From: Lichenifustis flavocetrariae
GTDB taxonomy: Bacteria > Pseudomonadota > Alphaproteobacteria > Rhizobiales > Beijerinckiaceae
NCBI RefSeq assembly: GCF_026130545.1
Contig: NZ_JAMOIM010000032.1
Coordinates: 1 to 53,042, forward strand
Reading direction: 5' to 3'
Length of the DNA stretch: 53,042 nt
Numbering within the stretch: position 1 is the stretch's first letter; the number at the start of each line of letters is the position of its first letter. Made by a program: the position numbers and the translations under genes. Below, in pieces: positions 8,746 through 52,013 of the stretch. Under the pieces are notes generated by a model. The model was not told the DNA's origin. It searched no databases and saw nothing but the letters and a program-made list of their open reading frames with translations.

Positions 8746-8762
8746 GATTCGGAAACTACTCA
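8746..8762 (-). promoter_or_regulatory. Recurrent element, copy 1 (upstream of the BON-ohyA-cio-mla operon)
   Basis: Read toward the operon, the site is TGAGTAGTTTCCGAATC, two bases from the core consensus TGAGTAGTTTCCGAGCC. A TA-containing candidate -10 (CGTAGACTA) lies about 25 bases downstream, near 8715. The BON start is 222 bases away, the longest leader but one among the copies. Confidence 0.65.
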
Positions 8763-9305
8763 GGCCATAGTTCGCGAAGGCATTGCGCTGGTTTGTTTGG
8801 TGTAAGTCAGTTGACTTGCGGGACCCGGATCGTGATCGTCATGGCATGTCACCCTTCGATCGTTGCTTTTCGCGCCTCCAATCGCTTGTAGAAGGCAAGC
8901 ATGAGAGTGCCGTCGTGATGGCGGAAAGCTCGCTCGAATAGCTTCTGCAAGCATCGCTCGGCGGCCGCGTAGACTCGGCCCGGATCCGGGGTGAATTATA
9001 GTCCCTGCTCCTGTGCCGAACTGTGAGGTGGCTCAGTTTGGCTAAACGACGTGCGACATCGGTTCCGCAACGATGTCGAGGTTCGGAAACTACCTATGGC
9101 GCCTGGGCACGCTTGGCGGCATCCGGATAGGACAGCGCCGTCTCCAATCCGGCACGAAAAGCCTCAAAGTTGACCGCCATCACGAACGCCACCAGTCGAC
9201 CGTCGAGCTCTTCACCCGCGCCGCCTGACTGGGCCGCGATCGGCCAGAGTTGCGATTAGGTCTTTTCGTGTCTCTGGGCAGGCGGGGCGCCACATTTGCG
9301 GTTGT
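8763..9305. other. Gene-poor stretch with two decayed minus-strand reading frames
   Basis: No intact gene is recognised between the BON and alcohol dehydrogenase genes. On the minus strand, 8849-8995 reads AAAERCLQKLFERAFRHHD and ends ARKATIEG, and 9094-9260 ends FRAGLETALSYPDAAKRAQAP. Both look protein-like but lack a start codon with a ribosome-binding site, and neither matches a family I know. A copy of the recurrent element separates them. I take them as remains of lost genes. Confidence 0.35.
9080..9096 (-). promoter_or_regulatory. Recurrent element, copy 2 (orphan, no intact gene downstream)
   Basis: Read leftward the site is TAGGTAGTTTCCGAACC followed by T, a near-perfect copy and one with the imperfect dyad TAGG...CCT. 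The only reading frame it faces is the decayed one at 8849-8995, so it may be the surviving promoter of a lost gene. Confidence 0.6.
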
Positions 9306-10289
9306 TCACGGCACGAGCACTGCGGCGCCATCGAACCGGCCAGCGCGCAGGTCCTCAAGCGCTTTGTTGGCTTGTTCGAGCGGGTAGACCGTCGTTTTGA
9401 CGACAATGCCGATCTTCGGAACCAGCCCGAGGAAATCGATTCCATCCTGGCGGGTAAGGTTGGCAACTGACAGCAGTTGGCGCTCTTCCCAAAGAATTTG
9501 GTACGGAAAGCTTGGGATGTCGCTCATATGGATCCCGGCGCAAACCACGCGCCCGCCCTTGCGGACTGCCTTCAGCGCCTGGGGAACGAGGTCACCCACG
9601 GTTGCGTAGATGATTGCCGCGTCGAGCGGCTCCGGGGGCATCTCATCAGAGCCGCCTGCCCAAGTGACGCCCAGGGTGCGAGCAAAGATCTGCGTGCCTG
9701 TATCCCCGGGCCGAGTGAAGGCGAAGACCTCCCGGCCCTGCCACTTGGCGACCTGGGCGACGATGTGGCCAGCGGCGCCGAACCCGTAGAGTCCCAACCG
9801 CTTACCGTCGCCGGCGATCTTCAGGGAGCGCCAGCCGATCAGGCCGGCGCAAAGTAGCGGCGCCAGTGACACGTCGCTGCCGGTCTCGCCGAGCGGAAAA
9901 GCAAAGCGCGCGTCGGCGATGACTGCGGTCGCGAAGCCTCCGTCACGTGTGTAGCCCGTGAACAGCGGCGCGTCGCAAAGATTTTCCCTATTTGCTTCGC
10001 AATAGGGGCAGACGCCGCAGGTATGGCCGAGCCAGGGAATTCCCACCCGCTCACCCATGGCGAGCCCTGCAACGCCTGGTCCGATCGCATCGATACGGCC
10101 AACGATCTCGTGGCCGGGGATGACCGGTGACTTCGGGTCGGGCAATTCACCGTCCAGAACGTGCAGGTCGGTGCGACAGACGCCGCATGCGAGGACCTTG
10201 ATCCGCACCTCGCCGTCCCCGGGCTGTCGGTCAGGCAATTCCGTCCATTTGAGCGGGGACCCCGGCCTGTTGAGCACCATCGCCTTCAT
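9306..10289 (-). CDS. Zinc-dependent alcohol dehydrogenase
   Basis: A medium-chain dehydrogenase, 327 aa, that probably interconverts alcohols and aldehydes with NAD(P). The N-terminal GroES-like half carries the catalytic zinc residues (ACGVCRTDLH near 34-43, GHEIVGRID near 60) and the structural zinc cluster CGVCPYCEANRENLC near 92-106. The Rossmann motif is YGFGAAGHIVAQVAKWQG. The length and pattern fit the AdhA-like Zn-ADH group found in low-oxygen gene clusters of other proteobacteria. AAGGACG precedes the ATG. It follows the nnr gene by 63 bases on the same strand and probably shares its promoter. Substrate is not visible from sequence. Confidence 0.9.
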   Translation of the reverse strand: MKAMVLNRPGSPLKWTELPDRQPGDGEVRIKVLACGVCRTDLHVLDGELPDPKSPVIPGHEIVGRIDAIGPGVAGLAMGERVGIPWLGHTCGVCPYCEANRENLCDAPLFTGYTRDGGFATAVIADARFAFPLGETGSDVSLAPLLCAGLIGWRSLKIAGDGKRLGLYGFGAAGHIVAQVAKWQGREVFAFTRPGDTGTQIFARTLGVTWAGGSDEMPPEPLDAAIIYATVGDLVPQALKAVRKGGRVVCAGIHMSDIPSFPYQILWEERQLLSVANLTRQDGIDFLGLVPKIGIVVKTTVYPLEQANKALEDLRAGRFDGAAVLVP

Positions 10290-10352
10290 GGTTTCGTCCT
10301 TGGTCTGATTGGGCGAGTGGTCGCTGGCAACAGTGAAATGCTTGTCAGCTGA

Positions 10353-11846
10353 CTATGCATCCAATTGCGCCCTGAGCTTTTGCAGCACCCGTGGCAGAAC
10401 CCCTTGTAGATCCTCTGCGACGAGCCCCAGCCCGAATTCCGCCGCTGCCGCGCCGTGAATCCAGGCGCCAGCCGCGGCGGCCTCGAACCCGGTCATTCCC
10501 TGGGCCAGCAGCCCGCTGATAAAACCAGTCAGGACATCACCGCTCCCGCCGGTCGCGAGCTGCGGCGGCGCATTGGAATTGATGATCGCGCGCCCGTCCG
10601 GTGCCGCGATGACGGTATCCGACCCCTTGAGCAGGACAATGGCTCCGCTTTGCCTGGCGGCTGCGCGCGCGCGCTCCAGTTTGTCGCCCTCGAAATGAAA
10701 CAGGCGCATGAACTCCCCATCGTGCGGGGTCATCACGCAGGGCCCATCGATCGCACGAAACAGATCCTCTGGCGCTTCGGCGAAAGAGGTCAGCGCGTCG
10801 GCATCGAGCACTGTCGCCCGTTTCATTGCCAGCGCGGCGGCGACGTAACGACGGGTCAGCGTTCCGACGCCCGCGCCCGGGCCGATTGCGATGACCGTAC
10901 GACGCTTGTCAGCCAGCAAAGCCTGCCAGCCCGAGACTCCCTCAAAGCTGTCCACCATCACATTGGTCAAGGCCGTGGCGTAGATGCTCCACACCGCCTT
11001 TGGCGCCGCCAGCGTCACCATGCCGGCGCCGGCGCGGGACGCGGCCAAGGCGGTCATTCGACTGGCCCCCGTTATCGCCTCTCCACCGAGGACCAGGACC
11101 TCGCCGCGCTTATACTTGTAGCTTTCGGGCTCTGGCCATGGATAGCCGCCCAGCCAAAGGCCGGGACCGTTCTCCCAGGTGTTCGGGCCGATGGCGTCAA
11201 GCACCGACACTGGAGTGCCGATGTCGGCCACCAAGATGTCGCCGCACAGCGCTCGTCCCGGATAGAGCAGGTGCCCGGGCTTCTTGCGAAAAAAGGTCAC
11301 CGTCAGGTCAGCCGGCGCCGCCGCACCGCGCACTCTCCCGGAGGCGCCGTCGAGGCCACTCGGGACATCGACAGCACAAATGGGAACACGGCGCGATTTC
11401 ATGGCCTCAACGAGGATAGCCGCTTGGCCGTCCAAAGCACGAGACAGTCCAGCACCGAAGAGTGCATCGACGATCACCCCAGCGCCATCGAGACTGTCTG
11501 GTGTGAATGGCGCCAGCTCGTCTTTCCACATGCTGGCGACCCGAGCAGCGTCTCCAGATAGCTTTTCGCGTGAGCCAAGCAAAGCCACTTTCACCGGCCA
11601 CCCCGCAGCGCTGAGATGGCGGGCAACGACGAAGCCATCGCCACCATTGTTGCCGGGGCCACACAGAACCGTAACCGGTCGCATCTGCCAGCGCTCGCCA
11701 ACCGCGACTGCGACAGCGCCGCCGGCCGCCTCCATCATCGCAGCGCCGCTTACGCCGGCCGCCTCAGCTGCGCGGTCGGCGTCACCCATCTGGGTGGGCG
11801 TCAGAAGCGAGAGTTCGCTGTGTTCAAACTTAAGTTCGGTGATCAT
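10353..11846 (-). CDS. nnr: Bifunctional NAD(P)H-hydrate epimerase / ADP-dependent dehydratase
   Basis: Repairs hydrated NADH and NADPH; 497 aa with both activities fused, as usual in bacteria. The N-terminal epimerase half (to about 215) has CGPGNNGGDGFVVARHL. The C-terminal ribokinase-like dehydratase half has AIGPGAGVG, MTPHDGEFMRLF and the catalytic NAPPQLATGGSGDVLTGF loop. The ribosome-binding site at the 11846 ATG is weak; a later Met (MGDADRAAEAAG) is possible but would cut into the family N-terminus. A recurrent element lies 52 bases upstream, back to back with that of gnd. Nicotinamide repair beside dehydrogenases fits a redox-stressed cell. Confidence 0.93.
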   Translation of the reverse strand: MITELKFEHSELSLLTPTQMGDADRAAEAAGVSGAAMMEAAGGAVAVAVGERWQMRPVTVLCGPGNNGGDGFVVARHLSAAGWPVKVALLGSREKLSGDAARVASMWKDELAPFTPDSLDGAGVIVDALFGAGLSRALDGQAAILVEAMKSRRVPICAVDVPSGLDGASGRVRGAAAPADLTVTFFRKKPGHLLYPGRALCGDILVADIGTPVSVLDAIGPNTWENGPGLWLGGYPWPEPESYKYKRGEVLVLGGEAITGASRMTALAASRAGAGMVTLAAPKAVWSIYATALTNVMVDSFEGVSGWQALLADKRRTVIAIGPGAGVGTLTRRYVAAALAMKRATVLDADALTSFAEAPEDLFRAIDGPCVMTPHDGEFMRLFHFEGDKLERARAAARQSGAIVLLKGSDTVIAAPDGRAIINSNAPPQLATGGSGDVLTGFISGLLAQGMTGFEAAAAGAWIHGAAAAEFGLGLVAEDLQGVLPRVLQKLRAQLDA

Positions 11847-11897
11847 GTCCGTCCGCCAGCGAGAGTCACGATGGGCACCATCGATCCTCGCGGGACA

Positions 11898-11914
11898 GGA
11901 TCGGAATTTACTCA
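11898..11914 (-). promoter_or_regulatory. Recurrent element, copy 3 (upstream of nnr-adh)
   Basis: Read toward nnr the site is TGAGTAAATTCCGATCC then T, with two changes in the central G-T-T. It is 52 bases before the nnr ATG and only 12 bases from copy 4, which faces the other way. Confidence 0.55.
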
Positions 11915-11926
11915 GTAGAAGCCGTC

Positions 11927-11943
11927 TGAGTATTTTCCGATCC
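11927..11943 (+). promoter_or_regulatory. Recurrent element, copy 4 (upstream of gnd)
   Basis: TGAGTATTTTCCGATCC followed by TA, one change in the central run plus the variable base. It faces gnd, whose start is 255 bases away, the longest leader in the set. Confidence 0.55.
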
Positions 11944-12197
11944 TACCGAACAGACATGAAATCGGCATTCTCACCAAGACTACCAGGAGGATCCAGGGGG
12001 GCCGATGATTGCTGTAAACGGCAACTTGCATGGGTCAAGGCTCCAGGTGGAACCTGTCACAGCCGTCCTAGCCTCGTCGCAAGGCTCGGCCGTCGCTTGC
12101 AGACGTCCTCATCCGCAACCCGCTGGAATTCCTCGCCAGCGTTCAGCCAGTCTCTTGGGTGAGAACACCAACCTGGGCACGCCGCAAAAGGAAGGCG

Positions 12198-13229: not shown

Positions 13230-13331
13230 GGCACGCTTCATCACCCGCGATCTCTACAACGTGACCTTGAGGCTGTGTACCGGGTCGACCGCCATCCGCC
13301 GGAGGCCATCGTTCTGCATTGGGAGGGGCCT

Positions 13332-14258: not shown

Positions 14259-14367
14259 CGGCGCGTTATCCGATGTCGATAGAAGGGCTGCCAGATTCTG
14301 CATGATAGAAGGGCCGCGCGGCCTTCTCGGGGCGGAGGCAGGGTCGACCAACGTGTGAACAGTTCGC

Positions 14368-14395
14368 CCCATTCGCTGCTCGGCATGCGAATGGG
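14368..14395. terminator. Candidate bidirectional terminator hairpin between convergent genes
   Basis: CCCATTCGC at 14368-14376 and GCGAATGGG at 14387-14395 form a perfect 9-base-pair stem around a 10-base loop. It lies between the ends of the LysR gene and the giant kinase gene, which converge. There is no T run on either side, so factor-independent termination is only possible. Confidence 0.45.
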
Positions 14396-14440
14396 ACTTA
14401 CGTAAAATGCGAAAAACGGTGGGTGGCCCCGATCGGCGCG

Positions 14441-17400
14441 CTACTCGGCAGCAATCGGCTCGAAAGGTGGCTCCTCCGCATCGTCCGCCGCCGCCGCCAG
14501 GGCCAGGCGCGCGAGGGCTGGCATAGACTTCGAACCCGTTCGCTTCATGATCGACGCCCGGTGGTTTTCGACGGTGCGTTGACTGATGCCAAGGTCCGCA
14601 GCGATGTTCTTGCTGGGCTGGCCCCCGAGAACGAGATCCATGATCTGGTGCTGGCGCGGCGTGAGGTCGGCCACTTGGCGGGCGGCCTTTTCCCGCCAGG
14701 CGAACAGCTTGCTCTGATCGCGTGATTGGTCGAGGGCGCGGTTGACGGCGGCAAGCAGCTCGTCGCGCCCGACCGGCTTCTCGATGAAGTCCGACGCGCC
14801 CGCCTTCATGGCCCTGACCGCCATGGGCACGTCGCTGCGCCCGGTGATCATGATGGCCGGGAGGCGATGTCTCTCGGCCCTCAGCCGCCGCAGGAGTTCA
14901 AACCCGTCCATGCCGGGCAGGTAGGCATCGATGAGGAGGCACGTGCCGTGTCCGGGATGGTAGGCTTCGAGAAACGCCTCGCATGAGGCGAATGCCTTAA
15001 CGCGATGGCCGGCCTCCTCAAGGACGATTTGCACGGCATCGCTCACCGTCTTGTCGTCGTCGACGACGAAGATGGTTGGAGGCGCAGCACCGTTCGCAGG
15101 CGCGGAGGTTACTTGCGGGCGTGGAAGCGAGACCAATGGACCATGAGGCAGCAGACGCCGTACGGCTTCCATCAAGGCCTCTAATTTCACCGGCTTTGTG
15201 AGCAGGACGCATTTGCTGAGGGAGATGTCCCGCAGGGTTTGCGTCGATATATCCCCGGTCAAAACGATGACCGGGATCTCGCGCTTGAGGACTTCGCCAA
15301 GCTTGAGACCGGCTTCGAGCCCGTTAGGCCCGTTCGGAAGATTGTAGTCGGCGAGAAGGAGATCTGGATGGATCTCGCCCCGGGCCACGAGTTCAAGCGC
15401 CATGGGGACGTCGGACGCTGTCGTCACCTGGTAACCATCGTCCTTGAGGAACAGGGCTAGGGCGTCCCGGACTGTCGGATCATCTTCGATAACCAGGATC
15501 ATTGTCTTGCGGACACCATCGGCAGCCTCCTCGCGCCGACGGGGCGGCGGAGCGGACGCCGGCCTGGCCGTTCCGTTAGGCACGATTCGGACTTCGATCA
15601 TGAAGGCCGATCCCTTGCCGGTCGTGGAGCGGACGCGTACCGGATGACCGAGCATGCTTCCGAGACGCTGCACGATGGAAAGCCCGAGCCCGAGCCCCAG
15701 ATGACGTTCCCGCGCCTTGTTGTCGATCTGGTGATATTCGTCGAAGATGGCCTGCAGCTCATCTTGGGGGATCCCGATGCCGGTGTCCCAGATCTCGATG
15801 GAGAGCGTCGCCCCATGGCGTCGGCATCCGATCAGGACTTTGCCGCGCTTCGTGTATTTCAGAGCGTTTGACAACAGGTTGCGGATCATCTGCTCAAGCA
15901 GATGCGGGTCGGTTTCGACCGCGAGGCTGCACGGGACCACGTGAAACCCGAGATCCTGCTCGCCGGCGTGCCAGCTGAACTCCGCCCGCAACCGGTCGAG
16001 GAGATCGTTCATGGCAAAGGCCGTGACCGCCGTGTCGACCGTGCCGGCCTCGAGTTGGTTGATGTCGAGCATCGTGTTCAGCATCGTCGACATTGAGGAC
16101 GCCGTGTCATCGAGCTTGGCGACGAGTTCCAAGGCCTGCTCGGTGCGCCGCTCCAAAATCCGTTTGGCCAGAACCCCGCGGATCAGCTTGAGCGCCTGCA
16201 GTGGTTGACGAAGATCGTGACTGGCAGCCGCGAGAAACCGGGATTTCGCGATATTGGCCGTCTCGGCCTGCTGCTGCGAGGCCTCCAGCGACTTGGCCAC
16301 GCGCTTTCGCTCGGTGATGTCGGTGAAGGTGATCACCACCCCTTCCACTCCTCTGTCCGAGGTGTGGTAAGGCAGAATCCGACGTACAAACCATAACCCT
16401 TGCTGCCCCTCGATTTCGCGCTCGAGGGTCGAGCCATCCCGCAGCACCGCATGCGCGTCGGCCACAAGGGCGCCGTCCATGGCCAAAGCATGAAGGTCCG
16501 TGAGGGGCCGGCCGACGTCACTGGGGATGATACTGAACAGCGACTTGGTGGCCGGCGTGAAGAAGCGGATGCTCAGCTCGGTGTCGAGGAAGAGCGTCGC
16601 GACATCCGTGCTGTAGAGCACGTTCTGGAGATCGTTCGACGTCGTGCGCTGCCGCTCCAGGGTCTCCTGAAGCTGGCTGTTCAGAGCCGTCAGCTCCTCG
16701 ATGAGCGCCTGCAACTCCTCCTTGGAGGCGAGCAGTTCCTCGTTGGTCGACTGATATTCTTCACGCACCGAGGAGGCTTCCTCGTTGATCGCCTTCTGCT
16801 CTTCGGCGGAGGCGTCGAGACTCCGGGTCACATCCTGGAGCTCCTGTCGTGCGGCATCGAGTTCGCGTTCGAGATCGGCGATGCGCGGCGACCCGCTCGC
16901 AGCCACGGGATGGCCGTCGTCGTGCCCATGGCGCGGCGTATCGACGAAGCAGACAAGCAGGAGATCTTCGCCCTCGCTGATGAGGGGCTGGACGTCGATG
17001 CTGAACGATGTCGTCTGGCCGTCCTGCTTGAGCCGACCGCCTGCCAGGACGACCCTGCCATTCTCGCGCGCGGCCCTCTGGAGGGCCGACCGGAGCTTGG
17101 TCCGCACGTCTGGGCGCGCCATGACGAGAAGATCCTGACTTGGCTGACCCAGGGCCACCTGCAGGAATCGATCGATCGGTCCGAGCGAAAACAGACACTC
17201 GTGCCGACGGTTCAACAGCACAGTTGCCGGCGCATGCGCATCCAGCACGGTCGTCCGACAGAGTTGCGCAAGGACGCTCTGGCGGGATGGCACTGCCGGC
17301 GCTTCGACGCGGGCAATCGATTTCACCCCGTCGCCTGCCCCCCGCAGAAAGGCGAACTCCCCCATCCGGTTGCGGCCGACGCGCCGATAGAGGCGTTCCG

Positions 17401-18874
17401 TCTTCGCGATCACCTCGAACCGCCCCTCAGCCCTGCCGACCGTCTCGGCGCTGCCGAGCAGCAGGATGCCGCCTGGGCGAAGCGCGAAATGGAGGAGCGC
17501 AACCACATTCGCCTGCGCTTCAGGACCGAGATAAATCATCAGGTTTCGGCAGGAGACGACATCGAGCCGCGAGAAAGGCGGATCGGACAGGAGATCCTGG
17601 ACCGTGAACACCACGAGGGCGCGGAGGTCTGGAAGCACCCGATAGTGACCGTCCTCCTTGGCGAAGAAGCGGGTCAGTCGGCGTCGCGAGACATCCGCCT
17701 CGATGGTCTCGGGATAGAGCCCTTCGCGCGCCAGAGCGACGGCATCAGGGTCGACATCGGACGCGAAGATCTGCAGCTTGATCTCCCGCTTCGCGGCCGT
17801 GATCGCTTCCCGAAACAGCATGGCGAGCGAATAGGCCTCCTCGCCCGTGCTGCACCCGGCGATCCAGATGCGAAGGAGTTGGTCCGGCGGGTGGGTGCGG
17901 AGCATGTCGGGGACCACGTCCTTCGCCAGTTTGGCGAAGACCGCCGGGTCGCGGAAGAAGCTCGTGACGTTGATCAGGAGATCCTTGGCTAGCAGCTCGA
18001 CCTCGTCAGGATCGACGCGCAGTCGCTCCAGATAGCGGCCCATGTCGAGTGTCTCGATCGAGGCCATGGCCATGCGACGCTCAATCCGCCGCTGTAGCGT
18101 TCCCGTCTTGTAGGATGTGAAATCATGCGAGGTCCGCGTTCGCAGGAGTTCGACGATCTCCGGCAGCCGATTGGTCGAAGGCGGCGTCGGCGCCGTCTGC
18201 GTCGGCTCATGCATCTCGCTTTGTCGGCTATGCGAGAGAAGAGCTGCGGCGATCTTGGCGACCGGAAGCACGAGATCGACGGCGCCCGTCGCGATGGCGC
18301 TCTGCGGCATGCCGTCATAGCCGGCTTCGCGCGGGTCTTGAGCGATGATGAGCCCGCCTTTCTCCTTGATGGTGGCAAGCCCCAGGCTGCCGTCGCTCCC
18401 GGTCCCCGACAGGATCACGCAGACCGTGCGTTGACCGCAGTCCTCCGCCAGCGAATGCAGAAGCACGTCGAAGGGCAGGCGCGGGCCGCGTTGGGTCCGT
18501 GGCTTGGCGAGGTGCAGAGTGCCCAGGCGCACAGAGAGATATTGCCCAGGCGGAATGACATAGAGGTGGTCGGATTCGAGCCGCACCCCGTCGGCCGCCT
18601 CTTGCACGACCATCGACGTATGGGTGGCCAGCAGATCCACCATCATGCTGGCGTGGTTTGGCTCGAGATGCTGGACAAGGATGAAGGCCATGCCGCTTTT
18701 GGCCGGCATGGCTTCGATCAGCTTGGTGCAGGCATCGAGCCCGCCCGCGGAAGCCCCGACACCGACGATCGGGAAGTCGCCGGATGATGGGGTCGGCGGC
18801 CCGCGCGCCAAGATTGACCGCGGGTTCGACTGAGTTCCGTCCGCTTCGCCGCGCAGAGCACGCTTCTCTGACAT
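14441..18874 (-). CDS. Giant CheB-CheR-PAS hybrid histidine kinase with two receivers and a FixJ-like LuxR HTH
   Basis: A 1477-aa one-protein signalling chain. In order: CheB methylesterase about 33-215 (GASAGG nucleophile Ser, VQHLEPNH, GTGSDGS); CheR about 240-490 (SAM motif WIAGCSTGEEAYSLAM); a coiled coil about 660-735 rich in E/Q; a PAS domain to about 845; HisKA with ASHDLRQPLQ; HATPase with NLLSNALKYT and GLGLGLSIV; receiver 1 (acceptor Asp in LLADYNLPNG); receiver 2 (acceptor in LLIDAYLPGM); and a C-terminal LuxR HTH (LTPRQHQIMDLVLGG, ISQRTVENHRASIMKR). Receiver 2 plus HTH resemble FixJ, including FIEKPVGRDELL. No membrane segment is seen, so it is likely cytoplasmic. The start is uncertain: 18874 lacks a clear ribosome-binding site and 18940 is an alternative. 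It is the best local candidate to bind the recurrent element; its own leader has no copy facing it. Confidence 0.9.
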   Translation of the reverse strand: MSEKRALRGEADGTQSNPRSILARGPPTPSSGDFPIVGVGASAGGLDACTKLIEAMPAKSGMAFILVQHLEPNHASMMVDLLATHTSMVVQEAADGVRLESDHLYVIPPGQYLSVRLGTLHLAKPRTQRGPRLPFDVLLHSLAEDCGQRTVCVILSGTGSDGSLGLATIKEKGGLIIAQDPREAGYDGMPQSAIATGAVDLVLPVAKIAAALLSHSRQSEMHEPTQTAPTPPSTNRLPEIVELLRTRTSHDFTSYKTGTLQRRIERRMAMASIETLDMGRYLERLRVDPDEVELLAKDLLINVTSFFRDPAVFAKLAKDVVPDMLRTHPPDQLLRIWIAGCSTGEEAYSLAMLFREAITAAKREIKLQIFASDVDPDAVALAREGLYPETIEADVSRRRLTRFFAKEDGHYRVLPDLRALVVFTVQDLLSDPPFSRLDVVSCRNLMIYLGPEAQANVVALLHFALRPGGILLLGSAETVGRAEGRFEVIAKTERLYRRVGRNRMGEFAFLRGAGDGVKSIARVEAPAVPSRQSVLAQLCRTTVLDAHAPATVLLNRRHECLFSLGPIDRFLQVALGQPSQDLLVMARPDVRTKLRSALQRAARENGRVVLAGGRLKQDGQTTSFSIDVQPLISEGEDLLLVCFVDTPRHGHDDGHPVAASGSPRIADLERELDAARQELQDVTRSLDASAEEQKAINEEASSVREEYQSTNEELLASKEELQALIEELTALNSQLQETLERQRTTSNDLQNVLYSTDVATLFLDTELSIRFFTPATKSLFSIIPSDVGRPLTDLHALAMDGALVADAHAVLRDGSTLEREIEGQQGLWFVRRILPYHTSDRGVEGVVITFTDITERKRVAKSLEASQQQAETANIAKSRFLAAASHDLRQPLQALKLIRGVLAKRILERRTEQALELVAKLDDTASSMSTMLNTMLDINQLEAGTVDTAVTAFAMNDLLDRLRAEFSWHAGEQDLGFHVVPCSLAVETDPHLLEQMIRNLLSNALKYTKRGKVLIGCRRHGATLSIEIWDTGIGIPQDELQAIFDEYHQIDNKARERHLGLGLGLSIVQRLGSMLGHPVRVRSTTGKGSAFMIEVRIVPNGTARPASAPPPRRREEAADGVRKTMILVIEDDPTVRDALALFLKDDGYQVTTASDVPMALELVARGEIHPDLLLADYNLPNGPNGLEAGLKLGEVLKREIPVIVLTGDISTQTLRDISLSKCVLLTKPVKLEALMEAVRRLLPHGPLVSLPRPQVTSAPANGAAPPTIFVVDDDKTVSDAVQIVLEEAGHRVKAFASCEAFLEAYHPGHGTCLLIDAYLPGMDGFELLRRLRAERHRLPAIMITGRSDVPMAVRAMKAGASDFIEKPVGRDELLAAVNRALDQSRDQSKLFAWREKAARQVADLTPRQHQIMDLVLGGQPSKNIAADLGISQRTVENHRASIMKRTGSKSMPALARLALAAAADDAEEPPFEPIAAE

Positions 18875-19383
18875 GATGGAGGCTTTCGTTCGACGCGCAG
18901 CTTCAGCGTAGCATAGGCCAGCGGGCTCGTCGCGATCCATCGCGCCGTCCGGCTTTTCAAATAATATCAAAGCATAGAGGAGTCCTGATCGTGCAATAGA
19001 CGTTCAGAATAAACTCTTCTCAAGTCTGCCGGTCGGTTATCGTCTTCAACAGCGACAAAGCGACGATGCGGGATCGTGTCCTAAGCTGGCAAGAGCATGA
19101 TCTCGTGACGGATTGCTCAACCGGTTCCCCGCATGGCGCACCACCAGACCCGACGGGTGGCCGATTGCGACGGAAATCGCTTGCCACCTGATCTCCACGC
19201 CGTGGGACGCATAGGTAATTTCCGACCCTACCGCCTCGGCCTTTCGGCGTGCTCTACAAATCAGGAACCGTTTATGAGCGCCTCCCAATCTGCAACGGCA
19301 GACCTTGAAGGTGCCAGACCGATCTGCTCGTCGAACTTCAGCACTTACGACGAGCAACTCTTTCCCTTCCGCGGACGAATTCA
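18875..19383. other. Long divergent intergenic region between the giant kinase and slipin
   Basis: About 510 bases with no convincing gene. It should hold the promoters of both the kinase (leftward) and the slipin operon (rightward). The only clear signal is one recurrent element at 19212-19228 facing slipin. A plus-strand frame covering 19133-19387 has unremarkable composition and I do not accept it. Confidence 0.5.
19212..19228 (+). promoter_or_regulatory. Recurrent element, copy 5 (upstream of slipin)
   Basis: TAGGTAATTTCCGACCC followed by TA, which makes the dyad TAGG...CCTA complete. A candidate -10 (CTCTACAAA) lies about 25 bases downstream. The slipin ATG is 156 bases away. Confidence 0.65.
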
Positions 19384-20314: not shown

Positions 20315-21061
20315 ATGCGGCGCTTGATTGCGGGAAACTGGAAGATGCATGGCCTGGCCGCACAGCTGGCCGAGATCGAGGCGATCGCCGCTTCCGTCGC
20401 TGCCACGCCGCCAAAAGCCGACACGCTGATCTGCGTGCCTGCAACCCTGATCTCTCGCGCTGTGCAGACCGCCTCAGGCCGCGTCCCCCTCGGCGGGGAA
20501 GATTGCCACGCGGCGGTCGAGGGGGCGTTTACGGGCGATACCAGTGCCGAGATGCTGAAGGATGCGGGGGCCTCCGCAGTCATCGTCGGCCATTCGGAAC
20601 GGCGGCATTATCACGGCGAGACCGACGCAGCCGTGGCCGCAAAGGCAACGGCGGCATGACGTGCGGGCCTCCTGGCCATCATCTGCATCGGCGAGAATGA
20701 AGCGGAACGGCGGGACGGTCTGGCCTTGTCGGTATGCGGCGATCAGATTGCCGGCAGCGTGCCCGAGACTCTGGTCCACCCCGGCATACTGGCAATCGCT
20801 TATGAGCCTCTCTGGGCGATCGGCACCGGGCACATGCCGGCTGCGAACGAGATCGTGGAGATGCACGCACACATCCGCCAATGCCTCGCAAAGCGCTTCG
20901 GGGCTGCCACTGGGGAAAAGATACGGATCCTCTATGGCGGATCGGTCAAACCCGCCAATGCGCGGGAGATCCTGGCACTGCCGGACGTTGGCGGCGCTTT
21001 GGTCGGCGGGGCAAGCCTGCATGCCGCGGATTTCAACGCGATCATCCGCGCGGCTGAGTAG
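20315..21061 (+). pseudogene. tpiA: Triosephosphate isomerase interrupted by an in-frame TGA
   Basis: The 248-codon frame is a complete TIM barrel in one reading frame, except that codon 115 (20657-20659) is TGA. The order is AGNWKMHG (substrate Lys), IVGHSERRHYHGET (catalytic His), KATAA-stop-RAGLLAIICIGENE, AYEPLWAIGTG (catalytic Glu), and the phosphate loop LYGGSVKPANA. Related enzymes usually have a Trp, Leu or similar codon at the stop, so TGG to TGA is the simplest event. All other catalytic parts are intact, so the lesion is recent, a sequence error, or subject to readthrough. A second tpiA elsewhere would make loss harmless. It follows slipin by 73 bases. Confidence 0.85.
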
Positions 21062-21071
21062 TTTCCGATCC
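21055..21071 (+). promoter_or_regulatory. Recurrent element, copy 6 (upstream of the H+-ATPase)
   Basis: TGAGTAGTTTCCGATCC then T, matching the core except at the variable base. It overlaps the tpiA stop codon (TAG at 21059-21061). A CGTAGCTT candidate -10 follows at about 25 bases. The ATPase ATG is 171 bases downstream. Confidence 0.7.
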
Positions 21072-21241
21072 TGTCCCACGGCAGCAGCCGAAGCGTAGCT
21101 TGTCCCGCCTGGAGCGGATTCACGTGCGGGCGTTCTTCTCGGACCGTCGCGAGGGCCCAGGCGGCGTGCCCATCGAGACGGCGTGAGCGCAAACCTTACG
21201 CCGCCCAAGCCCTTTTGCCCATGAATATTCGAGGAGCACCC

Positions 21242-25114: not shown

Positions 25115-25130
25115 TAGGTGTTTCCGAACC
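25115..25130 (+). promoter_or_regulatory. Recurrent element, copy 7 (upstream of tal-pgi-rpiA)
   Basis: TAGGTGTTTCCGAACC then T: the core with one base missing between GGT and GTTT. A good candidate -10 (ATAATAG) follows about 20-27 bases downstream. The tal ATG is 117 bases away. Confidence 0.55.
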
Positions 25131-25246
25131 TGGCGCCGCATCAAGGTCGATAATAGCTCCTTGTACGCTGAAGTGACGGCATTCCCATCTGCAGGGCAGC
25201 CGACCGCTCACCCACTGTCCCGGCAACGTAATGAAGGAACCGAACG

Positions 25247-28767: not shown

Positions 28768-28784
28768 TGAGTAGTTTCCGAGCC
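28768..28784 (+). promoter_or_regulatory. Recurrent element, copy 8 (upstream of HAD-GH65)
   Basis: TGAGTAGTTTCCGAGCC then TA, the exact core. A GCATAACT candidate -10 follows about 24-31 bases downstream. The HAD ATG is 137 bases away. Confidence 0.75.
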
Positions 28785-28920
28785 TATCCGCTCAGAACAA
28801 CTGCCGCATAACTGGGTGAATTCCTCCGCCTGGGCAAACCTCCATTCCGACCTCATTCAACTCAATGCGCATAGGGCAAGCTCAGACGCGGCGACCTGAA
28901 CACAGCCAAGGTGCCGATCC

Positions 28921-35411: not shown

Positions 35412-35760
35412 GTCGGGTGGATCCTTAAGGGGTTCGGCGCGCTCGCCGCGTGTCATGTTTGGGGTGAAGCGCGCGCACGAGGATGGCTGGCGCTTCGAAT
35501 CGAGATGCGGCTCACGCCCTGATCGCGACGTTCTGACCGAAGGTTGGCGTTCTGCGATCGAAGCCGAGCTCATCTATTTCGGCTTAAACGGCGATCGCAC
35601 CGAAGGTCCGGAGCACAGGGTCGGCCTTGACCCCGGCAAAGGCAAGTTCGGAAACTACTCACATGTCCCGTGACGCCGGACGGACATCCGTAAAGATGCC
35701 CACCCGGCAGAGTTGCAGATGCCTCTCATGCAAACAGCAATGACAGCCCCAGCGGCGGGT
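35412..35760. other. Intergenic leader of xfp-fba and 3' end of the PRC gene
   Basis: About 350 bases without an accepted gene. It carries the recurrent element at 35645-35661 facing xfp; the remainder up to the xfp start shows no clear signal. The plus-strand frame from 35314 into this region has an Arg-rich composition and I do not accept it. Confidence 0.45.
35645..35661 (-). promoter_or_regulatory. Recurrent element, copy 9 (upstream of xfp-fba)
   Basis: Read toward xfp the site is TGAGTAGTTTCCGAACT. It agrees with the core to the penultimate base. The xfp ATG is 234 bases away, a long leader; no good -10 hexamer stands out. Confidence 0.6.
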
Positions 35761-36648: not shown

Positions 36649-36720
36649 GGCTTTCACTCTGGTTGTTGGACCAAGGAATTCGATCTTCCTCAAGCTGGAT
36701 CTCGCGGCATCGAGGAAACA

Positions 36721-36737
36721 GGTTCGGAAACTACTCA
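36721..36737 (-). promoter_or_regulatory. Recurrent element, copy 10 (upstream of the exported PRC protein)
   Basis: Read toward the gene the site is TGAGTAGTTTCCGAACC then T, a near-perfect copy, 73 bases before the ATG. The spacing would fit an activator site next to the -35 region. Confidence 0.7.
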
Positions 36738-37589: not shown

Positions 37590-37606
37590 TGAGTAGTTTC
37601 CGAGCC
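37590..37606 (+). promoter_or_regulatory. Recurrent element, copy 12 (upstream of the short BON gene)
   Basis: TGAGTAGTTTCCGAGCC then T, the exact core. A CCTATCG hexamer follows at about 22-28 bases. It lies only 28 bases before the first start codon proposed for the BON gene, which suggests translation begins at a later codon such as 37695. Confidence 0.7.
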
Positions 37607-37634
37607 TCTATTCCGTATCATCCAGCGCCTATCG

Positions 37635-38731: not shown

Positions 38732-38748
38732 TGAGTAGTTTCCGAGCC
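38732..38748 (+). promoter_or_regulatory. Recurrent element, copy 13 (upstream of 38829-41045)
   Basis: TGAGTAGTTTCCGAGCC then T, the exact core. CCATATCTT follows about 22-30 bases downstream, the best -10 match of the set. The first ATG is 81 bases away. Confidence 0.75.
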
Positions 38749-38828
38749 TGACGGCCTCAGTCGCCGGGCCATATCTTGGGTCCAACAGGCGCTGGCAAGG
38801 GCCTCCGCCTCCTGCTCGGTGACCCGCC

Positions 38829-41465: not shown

Positions 41466-41480
41466 CATCGGAAATACTCA
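41466..41480 (-). promoter_or_regulatory. Recurrent element, copy 14 (variant at a gene end)
   Basis: Read leftward: TGAGTATTTCCGATG, one base short and imperfect at the end. It overlaps the stop codon of the HAD gene and faces no minus-strand gene. It is the weakest member of the set and may be chance or a dead copy. Confidence 0.3.
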
Positions 41481-42302
41481 GGCGGTTGCCGGCTGCAAAA
41501 TGAAGCGCCTCACCGCCTTGGCGAAACCCTCGTGCTCGGTGTTATCCGTCACAGCGTGCGCCTGCTCTTTCACGTCGTCGCTCGCGTTCCCCATGGCGAT
41601 AGAAAAGCCGCTCTTGCGGAACATCGGGATGTCGTTCGGCATGTCGCCAATCGTCGCGATTTCGGTGAGCGGGATGTGGTGCAGCCTGGACAAGGCAACG
41701 GCGACGGCACCCTTGTTGGCCTCCGGGTGGGTCACGTCGAGATAGAACGGCTGCGAGCGCTCCGCGCTGACCGTCGCGCCCAGCGTCTCCTGCGCTGCCT
41801 TCTCGCAGGCCGCCACCAGGGCGAGGTTGTCTGAAATCCCGACGATCTTTACGACCTGCGCCAGATGCTCGGGCGTGAAGGATGGCACGATCGTGGCGCC
41901 GAACCTGACGTTGGACGTCTCGTGCGTGACGTGCGGCGCCTTGGGATCGCGGATCAACCAGTCGTTGGTCGTATAAATCCACACGTCGAGGCCACGGCCC
42001 AGGATTAAGTCGACGGTCTGCCGGGCCGTTGCGGGATCGAGACGATGGCTCTCGATGACGGACATGTCGGGATTGAACAGAACGCCGCCATTGAAGCCGG
42101 CGATGGCCCCGTCGAGCCCAAGGGGCTCGATCAGCATCCGCATGCCGCGCGGGGGCCGGCCGCTGGTGATCGCAAAGACGATGCCGGCTCGCCGTAGTTC
42201 GTGGACGGCCGCTTTTGCGTCCTCAGTCAGCACTTTGTCGCGGGTCAACAAGGTCCCATCGACATCGGCGAGGAGGAGGCGGATTTTAGAATGTATGGTC
42301 AA
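41478..42302 (-). CDS. HAD-superfamily Cof-type hydrolase
   Basis: A 274-aa Cof/type IIB HAD phosphatase. Motif I LLLADVDGTLLTRDK, motif II ITSGRPPRG, the cap in the middle, motif III Lys in HPEANKGAVAVAL and motif IV IGDMPNDIPMF are all present. Members hydrolyse sugar phosphates; substrate unknown. No recurrent element is found upstream of its start, so its control may differ from its neighbours. Confidence 0.9.
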   Translation of the reverse strand: MTIHSKIRLLLADVDGTLLTRDKVLTEDAKAAVHELRRAGIVFAITSGRPPRGMRMLIEPLGLDGAIAGFNGGVLFNPDMSVIESHRLDPATARQTVDLILGRGLDVWIYTTNDWLIRDPKAPHVTHETSNVRFGATIVPSFTPEHLAQVVKIVGISDNLALVAACEKAAQETLGATVSAERSQPFYLDVTHPEANKGAVAVALSRLHHIPLTEIATIGDMPNDIPMFRKSGFSIAMGNASDDVKEQAHAVTDNTEHEGFAKAVRRFILQPATA

Positions 42303-42812: not shown

Positions 42813-42874
42813 TGCTCTGACCTCGCCAAAATCAATGTTCGTGACAGGGAAGGACATTCACGAGCCGGCAGATA

Positions 42875-42891
42875 GCATCGGAAACTACTTA
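42875..42891 (-). promoter_or_regulatory. Recurrent element, copy 15 (upstream of the 128-aa gene)
   Basis: Read toward the gene: TAAGTAGTTTCCGATGC then TA, one base from the core plus variable positions. The ATG is 63 bases away. Confidence 0.6.
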
Positions 42892-43089: not shown

Positions 43090-43106
43090 TAGGTATTTTC
43101 CGAAGC
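43090..43106 (+). promoter_or_regulatory. Recurrent element, copy 16 (upstream of the exported small protein)
   Basis: TAGGTATTTTCCGAAGC then TA; TAGG...CTA partial dyad. CCTATCC follows at about 21-27 bases and overlaps the left arm of the hairpin at 43132. The ATG is 63 bases away. Confidence 0.6.
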
Positions 43107-43131
43107 TAGGATTCGGTGGTTGCTTTCCTAT

Positions 43132-44528: not shown

Positions 44529-44545
44529 TAGGTCATTCCCGAGCC
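44529..44545 (+). promoter_or_regulatory. Recurrent element, copy 17 (upstream of the exported 164-aa protein)
   Basis: TAGGTCATTCCCGAGCC then T: two or three changes in the central run. A GGCTACG hexamer follows at about 27 bases. It is 99 bases before the TTG start at 44644. Confidence 0.45.
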
Positions 44546-44643
44546 TGCCATGGGCTGCAATGAGCAAATTGGCTACGACGGGGCGTCGGCAACCTCGGTT
44601 GGCTCGTTCTCCTTGCGTCCAGCTCACACGACGAGAGGGTCCC

Positions 44644-45138: not shown

Positions 45139-45223
45139 CGAGCAGCTCTGTTTGGACAGTCCACCAAGGGCGCGGATCGTCCCTGAAGTTGATGTGGCGG
45201 GTGATTGTGCCTGAAGGACTGAC

Positions 45224-47392: not shown

Positions 47393-47441
47393 CCGAAAGA
47401 CTGGTCACGTGCCCGTAGTTCGGCGTTGGGTCGGACCTTGA

Positions 47442-49019: not shown

Positions 49020-49058
49020 GGAGGGATCGCTCCGATCGACTGTTCGTTCCGAACCGAT

Positions 49059-49817
49059 CTAGAATCCGTAACCCCGCCAACCGTAGTGGTTGTGAAGACT
49101 TTTTTCGTAGACCTGATCGATCATGGCGATCGGGTCCCAGGCCGGACTTGTTTTGACCCGATCGCGGGTGACGTCGAGCCGGATCGTGTGCTCCGACCAC
49201 GCGATCCCTTTAACGGCGTAAGGCGAGATCAGGACGTGCTTTCCGAACCACCAGTTCTTGGTGTCGACGATGAGATAGCGAATGTCCCAGCTCGCATCGT
49301 CGATCAACATGTTCTCGACATGGCCGATCTCGCCATCGGTCGCCTGAAGGTGCGAACCGGTCACGGTGGTGATGCTGCGCAAATGCGGATCACCCTCGTC
49401 CGAGGCATGCCGGTTCGGCATTCGAGGCGCTCCCATGTCGGAATAGCCCAAAGAGCCCACCATGCCGAGCCCGCCTCCGAAATAGCCACTGCCACCCCAG
49501 ACAGGGTCCCAGCCGTAATAGTCGTAAAGCTGACTTTGCATCTGGAGCGAGACAGGCCGGTCTCGGGCGAGGTCGGGACTGCGCTCGATCTGCGCCTTCG
49601 ACATCCGAACCGGCAATTCCTGCGCGCGGTGATCGACCTGGCCGATGGCTGACGGGTGAACCAGGACTTTACGCTCTGACAACCAGGTTCCGGTGTCGAC
49701 GACCAGCCATCGAAGCCTCCACGATTCGTCATCGAACAGAACGTCGCTGACACTGCCGATGCGGCCGTCAGTGGCGAGGATGGCATAACCCTTCAAGGCT
49801 GAAACAGCGATAAGCAT
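49059..49817 (-). CDS. Double PRC-barrel protein
   Basis: A 252-aa protein with two PRC-barrel repeats: residues 1-75 (LKGYAILATDGRIGSVSDVLF, RLRWLVVDTGTWLSERKVLV) and about 155-230 (LQATDGEIGHVENMLIDD, IRYLIVDTKNWWFGKHVLIS). A Gly/Tyr-rich linker (DYYGWDPVWGGSGYFGGG) joins them. No signal peptide. The ATG at 49817 lies at the start of the first repeat. A recurrent element is 135 bases upstream. This class is widespread in alphaproteobacteria; function unknown. Confidence 0.85.
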   Translation of the reverse strand: MLIAVSALKGYAILATDGRIGSVSDVLFDDESWRLRWLVVDTGTWLSERKVLVHPSAIGQVDHRAQELPVRMSKAQIERSPDLARDRPVSLQMQSQLYDYYGWDPVWGGSGYFGGGLGMVGSLGYSDMGAPRMPNRHASDEGDPHLRSITTVTGSHLQATDGEIGHVENMLIDDASWDIRYLIVDTKNWWFGKHVLISPYAVKGIAWSEHTIRLDVTRDRVKTSPAWDPIAMIDQVYEKSLHNHYGWRGYGF

Positions 49818-49951
49818 GGGATGATCCTCTTTGGTTCGGCGCGCTTCAGTCTTCGTCGGTGCTATGGCGGGACACGCCAAGGGGGGGCGGCGCCAGCGGC
49901 AAATCACGCTCTTGATGACGGAAGACTAGATTTGTTTGCCGCGGACGAAGA

Positions 49952-49968
49952 GGCTCGGAAACTACCTA
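49952..49968 (-). promoter_or_regulatory. Recurrent element, copy 18 (upstream of the double PRC gene)
   Basis: Read toward the gene: TAGGTAGTTTCCGAGCC then T, the exact TAGG form of the core. ATCTAGT lies about 21-27 bases downstream. The ATG is 135 bases away. Confidence 0.7.
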
Positions 49969-50051
49969 TGCTCTGCGTGGCGCGCGAGGACACTCGCGCT
50001 TTTCGAAAGCGGCTCGCCGATGTCCAACTCACCTTCGGGCTGAAGTAGGGA

Positions 50052-50072
50052 CGGCTCCGGACAGCGGAGCCG
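50052..50072 (-). terminator. Hairpin after the Do protease gene
   Basis: CGGCTCCG and CGGAGCCG form a perfect 8-base-pair GC-rich stem around GACAG, 14 bases beyond the protease stop. No U run follows on the minus strand, so it is a candidate terminator only. Confidence 0.5.
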
Positions 50073-50085
50073 CATCACCGCTTCC

Positions 50086-51615
50086 TCAGCCGAAGGCATT
50101 GGCGCCGAGCGCGAGGTAATGCACGTTATCTCCGGACTTTACGCGCAGCAGAACGGGTTTGCGCTCCTGCTTGGCCGCGCTGAAGGCGGTCGTAAGATCC
50201 GCCGGTCGCGAGACGGTCTTGCCATTCGCTTGCAGGATGACGTCGCCGACACTCAGGCCGTTCTGGGCCGCGATGCCGTCCTGGTCGACGGCAGCGATCG
50301 TCACGCCGTCCTTTGCCCCACCCGGCACCACAGAAGACGGGACGAGCGTCATGCCGAGCGAAGACAGTTCGGTCTTGTCCGTTTCAGCCGAGGCATCCGC
50401 CTTCGCCTCCTTGTCCCCCGGTAGCTTGCCGAGCGTGATCGGGATCATCTTGTCTGCACCATCGCGCCACACGGTGAGCGTGACCTGCTTGTCCGGGCCA
50501 AAGGCGGCGATGCTGCGCGACAGGTCACGCGGGCCTTCGACGGCCGTTCCATTCACGGCTTCGACGACATCGCCGGACTTCACACCCGCGTCAGCAGCGG
50601 GCGAACCCTTCTGCGGCTCGGAAACCAACGCGCCCTTCGTGCTCTTCAAGCCCAGGCTGTCGGCGATGTCGGCACTGACGGGTTGAATCTGCAGCCCGAG
50701 CCAGCCGCGCGATACGACGCCGTTGGCCTTCAATTCCGCAATAACGCCCTTTGCGACCTCGGCCGGAATGGCGAACCCGATGCCGACGCTGCCGCCAGAC
50801 GGCGAGAAGATGGCGGTGTTGATGCCAACGACTTGGCCCTGCGTATTGAAGGTCGGTCCCCCGGAATTCCCTTTGTTCACAGGAGCGTCAATCTGCAGAA
50901 AATCGTCATAGGGTCCCGCGCCGATGTCGCGTCCCCGCGCCGAAACGATGCCGGCTGTCACCGTACCACCGAGGCCGAACGGATTGCCGACCGCCATGAC
51001 CCAGTCGCCGACCCGAGGGGTGCTGTTGCCCCACGGCACGAATGGGTAGTTGTCGCCGGTTTTGGTCTTGAGCAGGGCGAGATCCGTCTTCTTATCCGTG
51101 CCGACGACGGTCGCGGGTACGGTACGACCATCCTGCAACGTCAGTTCGACGGTCGTTGCGTGTTCGACGACGTGGTTGTTGGTGACGACGTAGCCGTCCT
51201 TGGAGATGAAGAAGCCCGAGCCGAGCGCCATGCCGACGCGCGAGTTCGGATGGACCGGTCCGTTGTTTTCGCCGAACTGCTTGAAGAAGCGGTACATCGG
51301 ATCATCCTTGGGGACGCTCGGCATGCTGGGCGGCTGCTGGCCAGCACCATTTCCATCCTGGCTCGCGGCGACATCGTCCTCAGTAATCTTCACCTTGACG
51401 GACACGACGGCCGGGCTAACCCGAGCCACAATGTCAGCAAAGGAGCCGGGTGCGATCTCGGCGGGGGCCGGCTCGCTGGCGATCTGGGCGGCGTGCGAGG
51501 GCGTGGTGCCGAGAAGCGTGGTTTCCGTGGCGACGCCACCGACCGCAACGATGGCGACGGCACCGAGTAACGCAGCGCGAAGCCGGGACGGGTTACGGAT
51601 ATTGATGATGTTCAT
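50086..51615 (-). CDS. Do-family periplasmic serine protease (DegP/DegQ-like)
   Basis: A 509-aa trypsin-like protease with a signal or anchor segment near residues 12-45. The catalytic triad is His148 in VTNNHVV, Asp178 in TDLALLK and Ser251 in GNSGGP. Two PDZ domains follow, the first with GWLGLQIQPVSADIADSLGL and the second with GVTIAAVDQDGIAAQNGLSV. It degrades or refolds damaged envelope proteins. The ATG at 51615 follows CGAGGCAA and begins MNIINIRNPSRLR; a longer frame to 51645 has no site. It lacks the recurrent element, unlike most units here. Confidence 0.94.
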   Translation of the reverse strand: MNIINIRNPSRLRAALLGAVAIVAVGGVATETTLLGTTPSHAAQIASEPAPAEIAPGSFADIVARVSPAVVSVKVKITEDDVAASQDGNGAGQQPPSMPSVPKDDPMYRFFKQFGENNGPVHPNSRVGMALGSGFFISKDGYVVTNNHVVEHATTVELTLQDGRTVPATVVGTDKKTDLALLKTKTGDNYPFVPWGNSTPRVGDWVMAVGNPFGLGGTVTAGIVSARGRDIGAGPYDDFLQIDAPVNKGNSGGPTFNTQGQVVGINTAIFSPSGGSVGIGFAIPAEVAKGVIAELKANGVVSRGWLGLQIQPVSADIADSLGLKSTKGALVSEPQKGSPAADAGVKSGDVVEAVNGTAVEGPRDLSRSIAAFGPDKQVTLTVWRDGADKMIPITLGKLPGDKEAKADASAETDKTELSSLGMTLVPSSVVPGGAKDGVTIAAVDQDGIAAQNGLSVGDVILQANGKTVSRPADLTTAFSAAKQERKPVLLRVKSGDNVHYLALGANAFG

Positions 51616-51811
51616 CTGATTGCCTCGGTGGTCGCCTTGTCGCACGGCTCGATCAGCGTGCTGATGAACGTAGGGTGCATGAACCCATGTTACGAGACGA
51701 TGTCCGCCGCGTTAGTATTTATTAATTACTTGATATTGACGAAAATTTACATTGCATAACTTTAAGCCAAAATCTCACAGAAATCGTATGACTTCTACTT
51801 ATGTGCCGGGC
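51616..51811. other. AT-rich leader of the Do protease gene
   Basis: About 200 bases of clearly lower GC than the rest of the window (for example TATTTATTAATTACTTGATA near 51716-51735). It probably holds the protease promoter. No convincing gene or repeat is seen. Together with the small gene at 51812 it forms the only notable AT-rich patch in the window. Confidence 0.5.
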
Positions 51812-51988
51812 TCAATCCCTAGCATAGGGCAAAACAAGATCGAGAACTTTTCTATAAACTGAAATTTCAAGCTGATTGCTATGCGCCTCGACAAAATCGA
51901 CAAAAGCCTTGGCGCTATCATGTATGTCGTCGCCGTCATATTCATTCCCGCTCAATCCCAGCAGACTTTTCAACCAGCGATGTGACAT
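51812..51988 (-). CDS. Small hypothetical protein in an AT-rich patch
   Basis: A 58-aa protein, MSHRWLKSLLGLSGNEYDGD at the start, then KAFVDFVEAHSNQLEISVYR and LVLPYARD. Base use is lower in GC than its neighbours. No family is recognised. Its start lies beside the recurrent element, which faces the opposite way. It may be real because the acidic and hydrophobic pattern is regular, but homologues were not checked. Confidence 0.45.
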   Translation of the reverse strand: MSHRWLKSLLGLSGNEYDGDDIHDSAKAFVDFVEAHSNQLEISVYRKVLDLVLPYARD

Positions 51989-51996
51989 GCGGAGCG

Positions 51997-52013
51997 TAGG
52001 TAGATTCCGAGCC
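51997..52013 (+). promoter_or_regulatory. Recurrent element, copy 19 (upstream of the 104-aa gene)
   Basis: TAGGTAGATTCCGAGCC then T, one change in the central run. TGTTATTG lies about 22-29 bases downstream. The chosen ATG is 108 bases away. Confidence 0.6.

Follow-up and report, generated by a model that had tools for sequence, protein, structure and literature searches.

An 18-base element directed at nearly every transcription unit of a Lichenifustis flavocetrariae island, and the FixJ-like hybrid regulator that probably reads it

We investigated an element repeated along a genomic island of Lichenifustis flavocetrariae. The window, that is, the whole stretch analysed, is contig C106 (53,042 bases) of a 7.5 Mb genome. 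An 18-base block stands ahead of nearly all transcription units of this contig and is directed at them, with a -10-like hexamer at a set distance in half of the sites aligned from the window and related loci, and in other genomes it co-occurs with a large regulator that the island also encodes (14441-18970, minus strand). Based on sequence comparison, this element is very probably the operator of one activator serving the island, most likely the island's own hybrid regulator. A preliminary description of the same DNA, made from its letters only, had proposed a single global activator for the whole island, and confinement, placement, polarity, spacing and co-occurrence all agree with that proposal.

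The preliminary description had listed 19 copies, of which 17 were firm: these matched TRRGTAGTTTCCGANCCT with at most 3 mismatches, while shuffles (n = 100) gave an expectation of 0.14 and a maximum of 1. A matrix built from the 17 copies scored them at 22.5-34.5 bits, and the runner-up anywhere in the window reached 10.9; the block conserved among them was 18 bases long. The copy at 25115 was a plausible variant, a 17-base form that scored 7.2 bits on the matrix and was properly placed ahead of a transaldolase unit. This form was found only there in the 2.1 Mb examined, and a family of spacing variants was rejected. The copy at 41466 was unsupported, overlapping the 3' end of a same-strand gene (41478-42302) and showing no TA..T at the offset. 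The imperfect dyad TAGG...CCTA that had also been described proved weak, as positions 2-3 vary (GA in 10 and AG in 6 of the 17 copies) and 5 of the 17 have the final A. The copies are given below; on the minus strand, the left end is 1 base lower than the coordinate first reported.

8745..8762, minus: element before the BON/MCRA/cydAB/Mla unit (610-8542); exact TANNNT at offset 41
9079..9096, minus: element without a convincing gene of its own; to its left, the BON unit comes next
11897..11914, minus: element before the NNR (YjeF)/alcohol dehydrogenase unit; back to back with 11927
11927..11944, plus: element before the 6PGD-like/LysR unit
19212..19229, plus: element between the divergent hybrid regulator (no site pointing at the hybrid) and SPFH; points at SPFH
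21055..21072, plus: element before P-type ATPase/PPK2; TANNNT at offset 42
25115..25131, plus: weak 17-base variant before transaldolase/PGI/RpiA; 7.2 bits; 12.5 bits (E 1.46) on the element+(-10) model
28768..28785, plus: element before HAD hydrolase/GH65
35644..35661, minus: element before phosphoketolase/class I aldolase
36720..36737, minus: element before a PRC-barrel gene; 34.5 bits
37436..37453, minus: element before a YflT-domain gene; TANNNT at offset 41
37590..37607, plus: element before a BON gene; TANNNT at offset 41
38732..38749, plus: element before orf38829/DUF6894/MFS sugar transporter; TANNNT at offset 41
42874..42891, minus: element before orf42426/HAD
43090..43107, plus: element before orf43292/YflT-2; TANNNT at offset 40
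44529..44546, plus: element, weakest of the 17, before orf44818/glycogen-debranching-like; 22.5 bits; 12.6 bits on the model, inside genome noise
49951..49968, minus: element before PRC-2/kinase-REC; TANNNT at offset 41
51997..52014, plus: element before orf52100

Genes of the window were called with a codon model, and transcription units were defined as same-strand genes separated by gaps below 130 bases, leaving out two doubtful short open reading frames (ORFs; 35455 and 41171). An element was directed at 17 of the 19 units from at most 320 bases away (16 if the variant at 25115 is discounted), in line with the earlier statement that nearly every unit is marked; the units without one were the hybrid regulator gene and htrA. 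According to Pfam, the tagged units contain BON, oleate hydratase (MCRA), cytochrome bd I and II and the Mla transporter; NNR and alcohol dehydrogenase; 6PGD-like and LysR proteins; SPFH and a split triosephosphate isomerase; P-type ATPase and PPK2; transaldolase, PGI and RpiA; HAD and GH65; phosphoketolase and aldolase; PRC, YflT and BON; a sugar MFS transporter; a debranching-like protein; and a kinase-REC protein. Sixteen of the 17 firm copies lay outside called genes. The seventeenth, 35644, touches only a doubtful 72-aa ORF. The copy at 9079 has no convincing gene of its own, and the hybrid regulator gene has no element toward it. Two arrangements among the copies were also observed. At 11897-11944, two elements lie back to back with 12 bases between them and divergent units on either side. 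At 8760-9080, the element at 9079 faces about 320 bases in which no gene is convincing, and a second element comes after them; this may reflect a small RNA or a distal tandem promoter.

Confinement was examined genome-wide with a model of 50 positions, comprising the element and the -10, with which 150 of 2,711 first-look candidates in the genome were scored. All 16 matches of at least 14.4 bits were on C106, so the genome scan that the preliminary description had called for placed its 16 best model matches on this contig. The best match elsewhere reached 13.3 bits (E 0.77), and the copies at 44529 (12.6 bits) and 25115 (12.5 bits) score under it. With 2 mismatches, the pattern was matched off the contig only at C178:6408. 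This copy (6408-6425, L033) is 125 bases from the end of its contig and may be a detached fragment of the island. At 3 mismatches the pattern search is at background in this genome, because the pattern and the reversed pattern gave equal counts (36 matches each).

To describe promoter geometry, 267 sites were aligned, taken from the window and from loci L094-L153 and L154-L233 except L168 and L172, after removal of duplicates by 50-base context, sites below 20 bits and sites less than 120 bases from the end of a stretch. A single clear feature appeared downstream, T41 A42 ... T46 T47, and nothing further was conserved upstream except a trace at -3 to 0. Exact TANNNT was found at offsets 40, 41 and 42 in 20, 59 and 55 sites, respectively (134 of 267 in total), against about 1 for each other offset (maximum 4). 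When the first T at offset 41 is set as -12, the element occupies -52 to -35 with its centre at -43.5, and thus a separate -35 hexamer would not be needed. The class II spacing, with a centre near -41 to -44 and a fixed distance to the -10, was therefore found in silico in these 134 sites. The preliminary description had put the element near -52 to -36 with a TA-containing hexamer downstream and had suggested looking for fixed spacing; the position agrees and, judged from sequence, a -10-like hexamer does stand at a set offset in half of the aligned sites.

Position relative to genes and polarity were counted for 261 of the 267 sites, the other 6 being in loci shorter than 9 kb. Gene ends in this count are approximate because the gene caller was home-made. 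Although called coding sequence made up 81% of the DNA, 253 of the 261 sites were intergenic, so the expected preference for leaders over coding sequence was seen in the window and its relatives. Three of the 253 lacked a called downstream neighbour; among the remaining 250, the next gene was codirectional in 227. Of 250 sites with a neighbour behind the element, this neighbour was divergent in 127. Such polarity would be expected of promoters that depend on an activator.

The protein proposed to read the element has these coordinates and domains.

14441..18970, minus: hybrid regulator, 1,509 aa (start codon uncertain), with CheB, CheR, PAS, HisKA, HATPase, REC, REC and GerE domains (Pfam); proposed element reader
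14501..14665, minus: LuxR/GerE DNA-binding domain of the hybrid, residues 1436-1490 (Pfam)
14741..15073, minus: second receiver domain of the hybrid, residues 1300-1410 (Pfam)

The last 219 residues of the hybrid had FixJ as their best PDB match (5xso, 1.5e-42), followed by 1yio. When a FixJ model was run against the organism's own genome, the hybrid scored 204.7 bits across both domains, far ahead of all other proteins: the runner-up reached 83 bits, in its receiver part, and the others extending into the helix-turn-helix part reached at most 60.3 bits. The FixJ/NarL lead of the preliminary description was therefore right, and it is now narrowed to this protein. The helix RTVENHRA, which we take to be the recognition helix, is nearly invariant among the orthologues, and the aligned 5xso has RTIEVYRA. 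H918, D1208 and D1348 were invariant in 18 aligned hybrids and are presumably the residues expected for a phosphorelay. The kinase is fused in one frame with the rest, there being no separate FixL-type partner, and the PAS stretch (residues 731-937) had no PDB match at 1e-3, a result that neither supports heme binding there nor speaks against it. The kinase-REC core resembles NahK/ErcS' hybrid kinases, matching NCBIfam near_NosP_CTERM with 368.2 bits (cut-off 400), but the best stretch of that match, residues 903-1271, lies outside the FixJ-like output. In the hybrid two-component systems of Bacteroides, a sensor kinase, a receiver and a DNA-binding domain are likewise joined in one protein; those are membrane proteins with AraC domains, whereas the hybrid has CheB, CheR and PAS parts and a FixJ-type LuxR domain instead. 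A second, remoter CheB-CheR relative was noticed at G000:C101:56383-59073 (36% identity over residues 11-919); two stop codons interrupt this match.

Whether the hybrid gene itself is tagged was considered in 51 full-length hybrid rows, in which L172 and L126 represent one genome, that of Rhodoblastus acidophilus (all 15,749 31-mers of L172 recur in L126 of G071), and two rows had less flank. Among their upstream 900 bases, 36 held a site of at least 16 bits, with 35 pointing away from the hybrid and 1 toward it. Autoactivation by the same geometry is thus not supported by the conserved site, which seems instead to be that of the divergent gene. This gene is SPFH here; elsewhere, among the few scanned, it encodes a single receiver, a PhyR-like sigma factor, a CRP protein or a LuxR protein.

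The element and the hybrid were then compared across relatives. The 15-mer core and the hybrid were searched in 199 family genomes, and 60 stretches were taken around hybrids or core matches. These stretches held 170 sites of at least 20 bits, while the reversed sequence gave none at 16 bits or more. Within the genus the distribution was patchy, with a full hybrid in 2 of 6 genomes (G000 and G086). As for conservation in orthologous leaders, a check that had likewise been suggested, 79 of the 267 aligned sites (16 of them the window's own) precede a homologue of a window gene within 450 bases; in the opposite direction, 58 sites did so, 34 of them before the hybrid gene. The 95 downstream-ORF proteins were chosen from 145 of 230 candidates, mostly longer ones, and some of these ORFs are wrong because they were picked by length. 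A contig profile search with the alignment of 18 hybrids returned 80 loci (L154-L233). Among the 41 hybrid-type loci (L154-L193 and L198), 33 held 92 sites of at least 18 bits, compared with 1 in the reversed sequence. In contrast, the 39 weaker loci (L194-L233 without L198; 34-43% identity, most of them matching chiefly in the kinase core) held 1 site of at least 18 bits, as did their reversed sequence. Hybrids with nearby sites include those of Parvibaculum, Rhodopila, Nitrospirillum, Acidisoma, Hyphomicrobium and Novosphingobium.

At the level of the class, 385 genomes of Alphaproteobacteria were analysed, with two candidates per genome scored in the hybrid search. A hybrid reaching the DNA-binding end was found in 17 (including three partial matches that reach the C-terminus, in G239, G258 and G379), the 18-mer pattern in 24 and the reversed pattern in 5. 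The pattern was present in 15 of the 17 genomes with the hybrid versus 9 of the 368 without it (Fisher 5e-19; 14 of 16 and 7e-18 when the organism's own genome is excluded).

The same association was found on plasmids. By tblastn, 20 plasmid records cover at least 80% of the hybrid, including those of Methylocystis, Phyllobacterium, Lichenicola, Acidiphilium and the betaproteobacterium Caballeronia; most of them label it 'chemotaxis protein CheB' or 'CheR family methyltransferase'. All six plasmid stretches examined have sites (27 of at least 20 bits in total), although the PLSDB gene tables are incomplete. On the Caballeronia SBC2 plasmid, six sites surround the hybrid, five pointing at a same-strand gene and one at the 3' end of the hybrid, and the tagged genes include a BON gene, a HAD gene and those for one general and one universal stress protein. 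One site precedes adhP-phosphoketolase-acetate kinase in Phyllobacterium, and the units tagged in Lichenicola include acetate kinase, gluconokinase, tpiA and phosphoketolase. A separate observation was made in genome G170, where 59 model matches at E <=1 are spread over many contigs, so the regulon is far larger in that relative and can outgrow the island.

Considering the FixJ-like output, known systems were compared. FixJ belongs to the FixLJ system of Sinorhizobium meliloti and Bradyrhizobium, and besides the C-terminal match to FixJ, the element itself is similar to its sites. According to PMC4999443, the FixJ core obtained by systematic evolution of ligands by exponential enrichment (SELEX) is GTAGTTTCCC and the fixK site is TAAGTAATTTCCCTTA; both agree with the element over its left 12 positions, and its core GTAGTTTCC equals the SELEX core. 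Relative to these published sites, A at position 7, which they carry, was found in 12% of the 267 sites, the right half reads GANCCT where FixJ sites have CTTA, and the 16-bp TAAG...CTTA palindrome is absent. Moreover, sensor and regulator form one polypeptide here, together with CheB, CheR and an extra REC, and the element has many targets, whereas FixJ acts mainly on fixK and nifA. The tables of PMC9104804 place oleate hydratase, phosphoketolase-acetate kinase and a HAD hydrolase in the FixK2-dependent microoxic set of Bradyrhizobium diazoefficiens. Target functions (oleate hydratase, phosphoketolase, HAD hydrolase) thus overlap with those of the island, but the units described there carry FixK2 boxes and the island units have the FixJ-like element instead. 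In the window, 8 TTGAT-N4-ATCAA boxes were found at no more than 2 mismatches (5.7 expected) and 1 loose match (0.4 expected), and among the genome-wide matches listed for FixK-type boxes none was on this contig. FixK control of the island was rejected, since such boxes are not above chance in the window. Finally, according to PMC6127331, the lxa locus of Burkholderia cenocepacia (BCAM0275-0323) is a low-oxygen-activated stress locus with BON and universal stress proteins. The Caballeronia hybrid plasmid region resembles this locus in gene content, having BON and universal stress genes; on the other hand, Pfam showed no universal stress protein among those proteins of the window that were submitted to it.

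There are other explanations for the element. It is unlikely that a separate FixJ/NarL protein encoded elsewhere reads it, with the hybrid merely a neighbour or a target. Genomes of the genera g42 and g40 do encode separate FixJ-like proteins (38-40% identity) but no full hybrid, and the stretch examined in them holds one or two sites resembling the element. However, other proteins of the organism's own genome that match the FixJ model in both domains stay at 60.3 bits compared with 204.7 for the hybrid, the element follows the hybrid over the 385 genomes, and the two travel together on plasmids, one of them betaproteobacterial. In four g42 genomes without a full hybrid (L137-L140), we observed a conserved site, GTTCGTAGTTTCCGAACCTTT (GTAATTT in one), which may belong to a separate FixJ-like protein. 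An equally improbable alternative is a repressor operator, at which the bound protein would block polymerase. Repressors tolerate variable positions, whereas the fixed -10 distance, the polarity and the missing conserved -35 fit an activator-dependent promoter better, even though, at -52 to -35, the element would share bases with the -35 region and PMC13327599 reports repression of nifHDK by R. palustris FixJ. Least of all do we expect a mobile repeat, such as the end of a transposon or a site of integration, or a leader motif that acts after transcription. The element is repeated and island-confined, several hybrid plasmid stretches are rich in insertion sequence elements, and several of the Acidiphilium sites lie among transposases. 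Nevertheless, only 18 bp are conserved with nothing else clearly common apart from the -10, the element is oriented to genes, and a scan of the window gave no Rfam match (nor any tRNA).

Several observations also weigh against assigning the element to an activator, and to the hybrid in particular. The genome is a draft of 180 contigs. Exact TANNNT occurs in just 6 of the 17 window copies at offsets 41-42 (8745, 21055, 37436, 37590, 38732 and 49951), and in 7 at offsets 40-42, with 43090 at 40. The hybrid falls below the NCBIfam FixJ cut-off (226.9 versus 255 bits). No site of at least 16 bits was present within 900 bp upstream in 15 of the 51 full-length hybrid rows, and 8 of the 41 hybrid-type loci, including Rhodoblastus L172 and Caballeronia arationis L180, had no 18-bit site in the stretch. 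Two of the 17 hybrid genomes (G213 and G233) lack the pattern, and 9 of the 24 pattern genomes gave no hybrid in the class-level search. Among the latter, a 916-aa frame of G264 contains a REC-GerE part with 49% identity, the one in G357 reaches just 33%, and G296, G370, G384, G446, G458, G538 and G566 gave no REC-GerE match at 1e-30. The counts are not independent because genomes and sites are related.

Binding by the hybrid, a phosphorelay within it and activation rather than repression are what we infer from these comparisons. An input through the CheB/CheR/PAS part would change the kinase, and phosphate would move inside the same polypeptide to the receiver domains, after which the FixJ-like C-terminal LuxR domain would bind the 18-bp element. 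The bound hybrid would cover about -52 to -35, overlapping the position of the -35 hexamer, and would recruit polymerase to a -10 (TANNNT) lying 40-42 bases from the first base of the element, as in class II activation. Nearly all units of the island would thereby be switched on, including phosphoketolase, pentose- and hexose-phosphate enzymes, the GH65 enzyme and polyphosphate kinase, as well as bd oxidase, oleate hydratase and envelope and stress proteins. Low oxygen or energy shortage would be the likely signal, because the island contains a bd oxidase and overlaps with the FixK2-dependent microoxic genes named above.

Apart from its control, the island carries a triosephosphate isomerase split in two frames (20315-21061, plus strand), 20315-20659 corresponding to profile positions 2-112 and 20726-21061 to positions 138-244 of 245.

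The kind of mechanism is known; what sets this case apart is that the regulator is fused, that the right half-site has changed and that the tagging is mobile and extends over the island. We found no paper describing this regulator family among the open-licence PMC papers listed by our searches. We consider the chances about even that the island is a portable, self-insulated regulon, in which one polypeptide would perform sensing, phosphorelay and DNA binding, a private 18-bp tag would mark nearly every operon, and plasmids would move the whole between genera and classes, placing a survival set that overlaps with the FixK2 regulon under a FixJ-like output that bypasses FixLJ-FixK. A candidate binding motif, a promoter geometry and a target set can now be assigned to these giant signalling proteins, which form a widespread family. 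The element thus offers a readable tag for listing the members of a mobile survival regulon in other genomes, and the island a clear case for asking how recruited genes acquire its control element.

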